64,000 nt of DNA from NCBI RefSeq assembly GCF_003932895.1, contig NZ_RQYW01000009.1:1-64000 (forward strand), read 5' to 3'. This document shows, piece by piece, positions 29,919 through 63,757 of this stretch; positions within the stretch are counted from its first letter, which is position 1; each line of letters begins with the position of its first letter. This DNA comes from Leptotrichia sp. OH3620_COT-345 (GTDB lineage Bacteria; Fusobacteriota; Fusobacteriia; Fusobacteriales; Leptotrichiaceae). The notes beneath the pieces were generated by a model. The model searched no databases, was not told the origin of the DNA, and worked only from the letters and a program-made list of their open reading frames with translations. A program made the translations under genes and the position numbers.

Positions 29919-30554
29919 CTATTTTAAACTGTCAATTTTTTTCTTATAGTCTCCACTGAATATATATGAACCTGCAACTAATATATTTGCTCCGGCTTCT
30001 TTGACCATTCTTCCGGTTTCAGCATTTATACCTCCATCAACTTCAATATCTATGTTTTTGTCCAGAGCTCGAAGTTTTTTTATTTTTTCAATCATATCTC
30101 CTATAAATGCCTGTCCTCCGAATCCGGGATTGACAGTCATTATAAGAATCATATCGACATTTTTCAAATCGTGTTTTATAAATTCAACAGGAGTAGAAGG
30201 ATTTAGGGAAATTCCCACTTTTTTTCCATAAGATTTTACTAGCTGTATTGCTCTGTTTAAGTGTTTTGTAGCTTCAGCATGAATTGTTATTATATCTGCT
30301 CCTACATCAACAAAATCTTTTATAAATCTTTCAGGATTTTCAATCATCAGATGAACATCAAAAACAAGATTGCTATGCTTTCTTATGGCCGAAATTACAG
30401 GTGCTCCGAAACTGATATTCGGAACGAATGAACCGTCCATTACATCTAAATGAAGATATTCTGCTCCATATTTTTCGACTTCCTGAATTTCTTCTTTCAG
30501 TTTACTGAAGTCGGCAGCAAGTAGTGACGGAGCAATAATAATTTTTTTTTTCAT
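29919..30554 (-). CDS. rpe: Ribulose-phosphate 3-epimerase
   Basis: 211 residues from the ATG at 30554; a GTG four codons upstream is part of the Shine-Dalgarno GAGGTG and is an unlikely start. TIM barrel with metal and catalytic residues in APSLLAADFSKL, LHLDVMDGSFVPN, DVHLMIENPERF, VNPGFGGQAF and DIEVDGGIN. Interconverts ribulose- and xylulose-5-phosphate. The PASTA-rsgA-rpe order mirrors the prkC-rsgA-rpe cluster of Firmicutes. Confidence 0.96.
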   Translation of the reverse strand: MKKKIIIAPSLLAADFSKLKEEIQEVEKYGAEYLHLDVMDGSFVPNISFGAPVISAIRKHSNLVFDVHLMIENPERFIKDFVDVGADIITIHAEATKHLNRAIQLVKSYGKKVGISLNPSTPVEFIKHDLKNVDMILIMTVNPGFGGQAFIGDMIEKIKKLRALDKNIDIEVDGGINAETGRMVKEAGANILVAGSYIFSGDYKKKIDSLK

Positions 30555-30672: not shown

Positions 30673-31563
30673 TTATTTGGAGAATAAATTATTTAGAGAA
30701 TATAAATAAAAATTATATCTCATTTCAGGTATATTCCCTTTTGTAACGTTTTTTTTAACTGCACAGTCAGGTTCATTTACATGTAGACAATCTCTAAATT
30801 TACATTTTGGTATATAATTCATAAATTCAGGAAATAGAAGTTCTAATTCTTTTTTTTCTTTTAATTTTGGAAATTCAAGAGAAGAAAAACCCGGAGTATC
30901 TATAAGATAAGTATTTATATCTATTTTAAAAAATCTACTCTCAGTAGTAGTATGGCGTCCTCTTGAAGTTTTACTGCTTATTTCATTTGTTTCCAGAATG
31001 TTTTCTCCTATAAGGGTGTTGATTAAAGTTGATTTTCCTGTTCCGCTCGGTCCTGATACAGTTACAGATTTTCCCTTTATATAAGATAAAAGAGTATCAA
31101 GTCCAATATTTTTTTCAGTAGACACAGGAAAAACAGGAACAGTATTCCCGAAATTCCTCTTTATTTCATTTAAAAATAATGTTAATTTTTCATCAGAAAT
31201 CAGATCAATTTTTGAAATGATTACTATAACAGGGATATTCTGACTATATGCGTTTAAAAGCATTTTTTGAAAAACTGTAAAATCAAAATTTGGAGAAATA
31301 ACCGATAAAAGGATTCCAATAAAGTCAATATTCGATAATAACGGTCTGTGCAGGAAATTTTTTCTATCCTCAATGTCGGTTATTACTTTTTCATTTTCAT
31401 TAAATTCCACAATATCTCCTATAATGCAATTAAGCTTATCGTTTTTTACCTTCAGCGAACCTCTTAATTTACATTCATATATGTTTTCTTTATTCAGATT
31501 TTTACAATTTTCATCTAATACATAATAAAAACCTTTTATTTTTCTAATAACTTTTCCTTTAAT
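30673..31563 (-). CDS. rsgA: Ribosome small-subunit GTPase RsgA, apparent AUU start
   Basis: 296 residues when read from an ATT codon at 31563. Downstream of it runs an in-frame OB-fold of the correct RsgA type (IKGKVIRKIKGFYYVLDE, YECKLRGS, IIGDIVEF), without which the protein (from GTG 31410) would lack its N-terminal domain. GGAGGT stands seven bases before the ATT, and no ATG, GTG or TTG lies nearby in frame. The circularly permuted GTPase shows G4 ISKIDL before the P-loop GPSGTGKST, then TTT, DTPG and a zinc cluster CKFRDCLHVNEPDC. It checks 30S maturation. The gene starts 18 bases after the PASTA gene stop. Confidence 0.9.
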   Translation of the reverse strand: MKGKVIRKIKGFYYVLDENCKNLNKENIYECKLRGSLKVKNDKLNCIIGDIVEFNENEKVITDIEDRKNFLHRPLLSNIDFIGILLSVISPNFDFTVFQKMLLNAYSQNIPVIVIISKIDLISDEKLTLFLNEIKRNFGNTVPVFPVSTEKNIGLDTLLSYIKGKSVTVSGPSGTGKSTLINTLIGENILETNEISSKTSRGRHTTTESRFFKIDINTYLIDTPGFSSLEFPKLKEKKELELLFPEFMNYIPKCKFRDCLHVNEPDCAVKKNVTKGNIPEMRYNFYLYSLNNLFSK

Positions 31564-31581
31564 AAGTATTACCTCCGAATA

Positions 31582-32526
31582 TTAATTGTCATTTGGAGTT
31601 CTTTCGACTTCCTCATTTGTATTTTCTATTTTTTTCTGATTGCTTTGCTGTTGGTTTCCGTTGTTGTTCTGATTATTTCCTGAATTATCACGTTTTTCAA
31701 TTTTATTGAGGGTATCATTTATAATATTTTCAATTTCTTGATTATTCAGATCTTGATTAGTTTGATTTATAATTTCTTCTACAGACGGTCCTGTAGGCTC
31801 TATTTTTACTCCTGTATTAATTACAATGGAAATTTTTTGGCCTTTGGATATTTTAGTGCCCGGAGCAGGTGAAGTAGATATAATTGCATTTACAGGTAAA
31901 GTAGGATCTTCTCCTTTTGATGTTCCTCCTAATGTCAGTCCTATCTGTGCAAGAAGTACTTTTGCATCATTTATGTCAAGTCCTATAAGGTTAGGCATTA
32001 CTGAAGCATCAAGGATTTTCTGTGATGATACAAGTATTGAAATTTTTTGATTGATTTCCAATTTTGTTCCCGGTCTTGGATATACTCCGATAATAGTATT
32101 GTATTTTTGGTTAGAAGGTTGATAATCTATTTTTTCAATCTGAATATTTTGTCCCTGTAGAAGAGAACGTGCTTCAAGCAGTTCAAGTCCTACAAGGTTA
32201 GGAACTTCTTGTCCTTCTCCATTATTTACCCATATTTGTACAGTTCTGTTTACTTTTACTTCTTTTCCTGCTAATGGGAACTGTATAAACACCGTATCAA
32301 GAGGAACTTTTTCAGTTTTAGAGTTAATGATTTTTACTTTAAGTCCTGCTTCCTTTAAGTATTTCAGCGCATCTTTTTCGTGAAGATTTACGACATTGGG
32401 TATAATTGTATGTCTATTATTGAAAAAATGTCTGAAAAATACTTCTTTTCCTATAGTTCCGATAACTATCAGACATACTAATGTAATTATTGTTTTTATA
32501 ATATTGAATTTAAATTTTTTTGCCAT
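31582..32526 (-). CDS. Membrane-anchored PASTA-domain protein without kinase
   Basis: 314 residues. One transmembrane helix near the N-terminus (TIITLVCLIVIGTIG), then three PASTA domains of about 65-70 residues (TIIPNVVNLHEKDALKYLKE; EVPNLVGLELLEARSLL; VMPNLIGLDINDAKVLL) and a low-complexity Asn/Gln/Glu tail. PASTA domains bind muropeptides or beta-lactams and usually form the outside of Ser/Thr kinases or PBPs. Here only a short cytoplasmic stub precedes the helix, so there is no kinase. Its position directly before rsgA and rpe is the position of prkC in Firmicutes. Confidence 0.9.
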   Translation of the reverse strand: MAKKFKFNIIKTIITLVCLIVIGTIGKEVFFRHFFNNRHTIIPNVVNLHEKDALKYLKEAGLKVKIINSKTEKVPLDTVFIQFPLAGKEVKVNRTVQIWVNNGEGQEVPNLVGLELLEARSLLQGQNIQIEKIDYQPSNQKYNTIIGVYPRPGTKLEINQKISILVSSQKILDASVMPNLIGLDINDAKVLLAQIGLTLGGTSKGEDPTLPVNAIISTSPAPGTKISKGQKISIVINTGVKIEPTGPSVEEIINQTNQDLNNQEIENIINDTLNKIEKRDNSGNNQNNNGNQQQSNQKKIENTNEEVERTPNDN

Positions 32527-63002: not shown

Positions 63003-63232
63003 GTAATTAAATTAGAAAGTAGAAACATTGTTTCTCACCTTTCCATCATGACATAATTATGTCATTAATATTAAAACTTTTATTTAGAAAAAAGTTCATT
63101 GATGAGTAAGGTATGTAGTTATTTTAAAATAATTTTGCATATTTAACTATATGCACATATTTTTACGTGACTATTGAACAAGGTTTCTTATATCTTGTTT
63201 TTTTATTGTATAAAAATTAGGAGGTGTTCTTT
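63003..63232 (+). promoter_or_regulatory. infC: Structured infC leader (L20-leader-like attenuator)
   Basis: In order: AGAAAC-att-GTTTCT (63021-63035); an 18-base perfect palindrome ATGACATAATTATGTCAT (63048-63065); TGCATAT-ttaact-ATATGCA (63136-63155); and an intrinsic terminator AACAAGGT/ATCTTGTT (63177-63199) with a T-run ending 63204, nine bases before the ribosome site. Firmicute infC-rpmI-rplT leaders are attenuated by L20; the same logic is likely, but I cannot align the L20 site. Confidence 0.65.
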
Positions 63233-63757
63233 ATAAAAGGAACTAATAAATCTGATGAACCGAGAATGAATGAAAGAATCAGAGCAAGAGAAATAAGAGT
63301 AATCGGAGAAGACGGAGAACAATTCGGAGTGCTGTCAGTTAATGAGGCAATGGTACTTGCAAATGAGAAAGGACTTGATTTAGTCGAAATATCTCCAAAT
63401 GCTGCACCGCCTGTATGTAAAATTATGGACTATGGAAAATTCAAGTATGAGAAAACAAAAAAAGATAAGGAAAACAAAAAGAAACAAAAAAATGTCATAA
63501 TCAAAGAAATACGAATTAAACCTCATATTGATGAGCATGACAAAGAAACAAAAATATCTCAGATTGAAAAATTCATAGCAAAGGAATATAAGGTGAAAGT
63601 GAGTTTAAGACTTACAGGTAGAGAAAAATTACATGCCGATTCTTCCATTAAAATTTTAGACGAGTTTGCAAATCATTTTGAAGAAACTGCAACTGTTGAA
63701 AAAAAGTACGGAAAAGAACAGGTACAGAAATTTATTATGTTATCACCTAAAAAGTAA
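63233..63757 (+). CDS. infC: Translation initiation factor IF-3, AUA start
   Basis: 174 residues from an ATA codon at 63233. AGGAGGTG stands seven bases upstream; the GTG at 63224 is part of that Shine-Dalgarno and cannot be the start. infC commonly begins with AUU, AUC or AUA so that IF3 represses itself. The protein KGTNKSDEPRMNERIRAREI, GEQFGVLSVNEAM, DLVEISPNAAPPVCKIMDYG is full-length IF3 with both domains and the linker (FKYEKTKKDKENKKKQK). Confidence 0.93.
   Translation: MKGTNKSDEPRMNERIRAREIRVIGEDGEQFGVLSVNEAMVLANEKGLDLVEISPNAAPPVCKIMDYGKFKYEKTKKDKENKKKQKNVIIKEIRIKPHIDEHDKETKISQIEKFIAKEYKVKVSLRLTGREKLHADSSIKILDEFANHFEETATVEKKYGKEQVQKFIMLSPKK

Follow-up and report, generated by a model that had tools for sequence, protein, structure and literature searches.

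The locus of rsgA, which encodes a GTPase of 30S maturation, raises the question of where, and at what kind of codon, the translation of this gene begins, and why such a codon would be kept. In the window, as we call the whole stretch of 64,000 nucleotides analysed here, the TAA stop of a PASTA-type gene lies in the same frame as rsgA. No ATG, GTG or TTG occurs in that frame between this stop and an ATT, nor in the 51 codons from the ATT to GTG 31410, and the ATT is followed by 295 further codons of RsgA. The initial annotation had described the frame of the RsgA OB-fold as open for 51 codons upstream of this GTG up to the ATT, with GGAGGT seven bases before it and no AUG, GUG or UUG in reach. 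This description proved exact: the Shine-Dalgarno (SD) sequence was confirmed on the minus strand, and the frame closes seven codons upstream without an intervening canonical codon (Table 1).

Table 1. Positions of the features around rsgA and infC in the window
Feature	Position	Strand	Remarks
rsgA coding sequence from AUU	30673..31563	-	296 codons plus stop; TIGR00157, Pfam RsgA_N and RsgA_GTPase, PDB 1t9h alignment
rsgA start codon ATT	31561..31563	-	no other start-like codon has proper SD spacing ahead of the conserved OB-fold
rsgA Shine-Dalgarno GGAGGT	31571..31576	-	7 nt before ATT
rsgA SD-start spacer AATACTT	31570-31564	-	
In-frame TAA	31582..31584	-	stop of upstream gene; ends the open rsgA frame 7 codons ahead of ATT
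GTG, first canonical codon in the rsgA frame	31408..31410	-	internal Val of GD-x-V motif, not start
Upstream gene, PASTA-repeat-like protein (name inferred from sequence)	31582..32526	-	ends 18 nt before rsgA start
rpe, downstream of rsgA	29919..30554	-	ordinary ATG start; used as control
infC (IF3), start AUA	63233..63757	+	Pfam IF3_N match; aligned to solved IF3; AUA/AUU in relatives
infC Shine-Dalgarno GGAGGTG	63220..63226	+	GGAGGT 7 nt before ATA, as in rsgA

We then asked whether the protein itself requires the AUU. The product was identified as RsgA (YjeQ/EngC) by the TIGR00157 equivalog model with 199 bits (cut-off 100), its GTPase domain was recognised by PF03193 with 151 bits, and its C-terminal zinc-binding Cys/His cluster CKFRDCLHVNEPDC aligns with CKFRGCLHLKEPKC of PDB 1t9h. 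The alignment with this B. subtilis RsgA begins at residue 2 of the query. Likewise, in the ATT-start protein, residues 2-58 are covered by Pfam RsgA_N (PF16745; profile positions 1-48 of 54); the model exceeds its cut-off solely with this protein, and the match is lost in the GTG-start version. Furthermore, pN/pS was 0.06-0.21 for codons 2-51 in twelve species pairs, and these codons were at least as constrained as the remaining gene in 11 of the 12, so that they are almost certainly translated, as far as codon comparison can tell. GTG 31410 codes for the Val of a GD-x-V motif that is itself conserved, but the codon varies: it is GTA in one congener and GTC in the other, and GTA, GTC or GTT in most relatives. 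A sequencing error at the ATT, which the initial annotation had named as a possible refutation, was excluded by the same codon with a similar SD in both other species of the genus and in four further genera. Another AUU, at codon 6 behind AAAGGA, was rejected as a start, as this codon reads GTT in one species. The gene thus carries the mark of the infC/sigR class, a non-canonical start behind a strong, well-spaced SD, and its translation from the AUU at 31563-31561 is, on these comparisons, very nearly certain.

To place this start among relatives, the family and the order were searched, the start regions were read, and 92 Fusobacteriales genomes were scored by one rule. As a result, codon 1 was ATT in 42 genomes, ATC in 28, ATA in 18 and another codon in 4; the initial annotation had proposed this alignment as its check, and it indeed returned one of the three AUH codons (AUU, AUC or AUA) in 88 of 92, with a GGAGG-type SD at similar spacing in most. 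An ATG at the same place in relatives, which was to speak against the AUU start, was seen in 0 of the 92. From the upstream in-frame stop to the conserved Ile6, 62 of the 92 genomes hold no ATG, GTG or TTG, and 55 of these 62 have an SD-preceded ATT, ATC or ATA. Another 17 do hold a canonical codon, but no SD precedes it by 4-12 nt; often the codon lies within the SD itself or follows it directly. The remaining 13 have a canonical codon with an SD match of at least 4 bases; among these, the ATG is a clear case in four g11 genomes and one g8 genome, and several of the others match by AAAG only. Where ATG is the start, the column of the window's ATT is an internal codon. Both sister species (G001 and G002) carry GGAGGT and ATT before rsgA, and G001 also has an upstream in-frame ATG with a weak SD (AAAG). 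Three genomes outside the 92-genome rule were read by eye: in G071 and G072, AAGGAG is followed after 8 nt by ATT and directly adjoins a GTG; G095, also of the Fusobacteriales, shows ATA codons only and no evident SD.

The comparison of starts covered Fusobacteria. Since the AUH start was found throughout the order and also in G097, from another order of the same class (AAGGAGG, 5 nt, ATT), these alignments indicate that it is old in the phylum. Thus, of the proposal that an AUU start is tied to one lineage, the start itself is strongly supported, and the restriction to one lineage gives way to an order-wide distribution. Later shifts to canonical starts occurred mostly in small-genome genera (g2, g8, g10 and g11), including a possible GTG start in g2 and g10. 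Because some small-genome genera replaced the rsgA start by ATG and kept AUU or AUA in infC, control at the rsgA start appears dispensable. RsgA itself seems dispensable in some species, since the gene is apparently broken in G009 (L028), a 99% complete genome, where it lies in two overlapping pieces in different frames with internal stops, and no rsgA match was found in G075. A scan of genome contigs gave only one distant RsgA-type gene, with ATG. In G023 (L026), one in-frame TGA was reported within rsgA.

We also investigated how exceptional such a start is within the genome, using a control sample of 864 kb that consisted of the window and 800 kb sampled from G001. Among 800 coding ORFs, the first canonical codon behind an SD was ATG in 597, TTG in 65 and GTG in 50. 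When we filtered for an SD match of at least 6 bases before ATT, ATA, ATC or CTG without a competing canonical codon, what remained was rsgA, one frame of negative downstream coding score and a single short, weak ORF, which leaves rsgA as the only intact gene with coding support to pass in the 864 kb. infC escapes this filter owing to an ATG at its twelfth codon, and a looser version also gave a few gene fragments. In the G001 sample, two frames on the plus strand, L078:5264-5617 and L079:1770-2288, share an identical stretch, lack a canonical start near their beginning, and are likely fragments of a repeated mobile gene. As for control genes, rpe, which adjoins rsgA, starts with ATG in 14 of the 14 genomes where it was readable, rbfA, rimM, lepA and era start with ATG in this genus, and thirteen second RsgA copies (paralogues of the same order) start with ATG or TTG behind good SDs. 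These second copies (L202-L214, about a dozen genomes) are often longer than the AUH-started copy.

In each of the four families of the order, the infC genes that were read start with ATT or ATA. Genus g17 is ambiguous, since an ATG follows its SD closely and precedes the conserved ATT by two codons. In the window, the two genes are built alike, as GGAGGT, seven bases, ATA and AAAGGA in infC and as GGAGGT, seven bases, ATT and AAAGGA in rsgA. The AUA of infC lies in the loop of a predicted hairpin, UUCUUU-AUAA-AAGGAA (window 63220-63246), which folds modestly better than shuffled sequences (z -2.0) and may add to the control of infC.

A variant of the rsgA leader was found in ten g6 genomes and the one g3 genome, which have no linear SD at the usual distance from the start. 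Their leaders run from AAAGGAG through a stem and about ten A/U-rich bases to AUC, AUU or AUA, and the loci with a stem between AAAGGAG and the AUH start are L010-L013, L015, L017-L019, L028 and L014. The g6 stem GGGAG/CUCCC is intact in seven genomes with the SD and the start 47-49 nt apart, and also in two genomes with insertions that put them 134-155 nt apart; in L018 and L019 the loop is larger by about 100 nt. L016, the third genome with an insertion, has the same arms with CUCUC on the 3' side, which could still pair, and it was folded only in part. Compared with shuffled sequences, the folding energies were only moderately better in g6 (z -1.6 to -2.1) and strongly better in g3 (z -5.9). 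Most simply, the stem would keep a distant SD close to a weak start, which makes it a candidate hairpin-bridged Shine-Dalgarno; in phage T4 gene 38, a stem likewise brings a distant SD near the start. A mobile repeat was rejected, as the full hairpin sequence occurs in one copy per genome, and so was frameshifting from an upstream ORF in g6, whose ATG is ACG in L016 and L019 and whose frame relation varies between species.

What, then, would preserve the codon? We propose, with a probability of roughly 60%, that the AUU-type start makes the output of rsgA rise with IF3 scarcity or immature 30S, in a negative feedback. Selection would maintain the codon for its rejection by IF3 on mature 30S subunits. 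With mature 30S and sufficient IF3, initiation on rsgA would be weak; a shortage of IF3, or a build-up of incompletely matured 30S that responds poorly to IF3, would raise it, and the additional RsgA would clear the block in 30S maturation. rsgA and infC would then share one control, whose signal is 30S quality and IF3 activity and whose sensor is the start codon. Since RsgA is not an initiation factor, such feedback must run via 30S quality or IF3 and not via direct rejection of the codon by the product. The link to IF3 has circumstantial support from the gene comparisons, because infC has the same kind of start and canonical ones are found in rbfA, rimM, lepA, era, rpe and the RsgA paralogues, and because, in other bacteria, such starts are repressed by IF3 and AUC initiation increases when 30S assembly is defective. 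IF3 destabilises initiation at codons other than AUG, GUG and UUG and thereby controls infC and Streptomyces sigR, whose GTC start it represses (PMC5472188). AUC initiation goes up 2- to 4-fold when 30S assembly is impaired, in data that concern ksgA, rbfA and rRNA leader or trailer defects and not rsgA itself (PMC10250234), and 30S subunits from ksgA or rbfA deletions bind IF3 poorly, as PMC10250234 puts it in citing Sharma and Anand 2019. RbfA is released by RsgA and also displaced by IF3 (PMC13246957), and RsgA keeps initiation factors off unfinished 30S (PMC13246957; PMC10486304). A plausible but more tentative extension is a Fusobacteria-wide loop, in which immature 30S or IF3 shortage would relax start selection, AUH-started rsgA and infC would go up, and maturation would be restored, with the SD-bridging hairpin added in two genera.

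The main rival to this feedback is a fixed low-expression start, in which the AUH codon would serve as a brake that holds RsgA at a low, constant level and reports nothing of the state of IF3 or 30S. AUU and AUA starts in S. aureus indeed give about a tenth (10%) of AUG expression, and ccpN as much as 30% in rich medium (PMC13009471), E. coli pcnB is described, in the account cited by PMC1780047, as translationally limited by AUU, and lineages that switched to ATG exist. Yet a weak SD or a GUG or UUG start would be an easier route to a low level, and the SD of rsgA is strong; the codon is exchanged mostly among AUU, AUC and AUA and seldom for a canonical one; and the module is common to infC but not to rbfA, rimM, lepA and era, which hints at a common signal. 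Moreover, pure constancy would need buffering, because AUU should be disfavoured by IF3 anyway. We therefore consider a fixed brake less likely than the feedback, though worth weighing seriously.

The other readings fare worse. Ribosomes finishing the upstream gene might mainly translate rsgA by reinitiation, the identity of the codon having drifted from AUG, and the 18 nt between the two genes in the window, like the short or abutting distances common in relatives, would suit this. Such drift, however, should often give AUG, GUG or UUG, and ATG is absent from codon 1 in all 92 genomes; rpe, next in line, keeps its ATG in 14 of 14; strong SDs are kept; and some g6 genomes have the SD and the start 134-155 nt apart with a conserved stem, all of which makes reinitiation improbable. 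A general relaxation of initiation, with many AUU-start genes and nothing special in rsgA, could appeal to the AUU or AUA of infC, but is largely refuted by the 864 kb sample, where rsgA alone passed as an intact coding-supported gene and canonical starts abound (597 ATG, 65 TTG and 50 GTG), and by the ATG of the four other 30S-related genes. Least probable of all, to a degree that we regard as negligible, is a true start at GTG 31410 or another internal codon with the upstream frame untranslated. AGGAG does stand 5 nt before this GTG, but the codon is unconserved within the genus, its use would remove the OB-fold recognised by Pfam, and purifying selection acts on codons 2-51 at least as strongly as on the rest of the gene.

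Among known systems, infC of E. coli, Streptomyces and S. aureus, with AUU, AUC or AUA and autoregulation by IF3, resembles rsgA in its strong SD and conserved AUH start, and differs in that the product of rsgA is a 30S maturation GTPase. Streptomyces sigR (PMC5472188) is likewise a second gene with a non-canonical start under IF3, as we infer for rsgA, and in both cases a canonical codon nearby, within the SD, may be mistaken for the start; unlike rsgA, which is known from sequence alone, it encodes a stress sigma factor, starts with GTC, and was established by mutation and IF3 overproduction. ccpN of S. aureus and Bacillus (AUA) and staphylococcal cvfC1 (AUU) share with rsgA a conserved non-canonical start and an extended SD, but are other genes in another phylum, with the start confirmed by Ribo-Ret (PMC13009471). 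In E. coli pcnB (Binns and Masters 2002, as cited in PMC1780047 and PMC13009471), the AUU limits expression; according to these citing papers it is regarded as an expression limiter, and the gene does not encode a ribosome factor. A further parallel is lepA of Borrelia burgdorferi and Bacillus licheniformis, a ribosome-associated GTPase for which AUU was proposed and whose full length needs it (PMC1780047); these are isolated cases from annotation repair, in contrast to the ATG of lepA in this genus.

In the literature that we searched, neither an AUU start of rsgA nor any non-canonical start in Fusobacteria is described. Control of this kind is already known, but here it would act on an unusual gene, and the start is conserved to an unusual depth. 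To our knowledge, few bacterial genes keep a non-canonical start on purpose. Since gene finders usually accept only ATG, GTG and TTG, annotations of RsgA in these species could be truncated, with the OB-fold missing, or else be too long. Finally, a 30S maturation factor with such a start throughout the phylum, like infC, would link ribosome quality and the strictness of initiation in one circuit.
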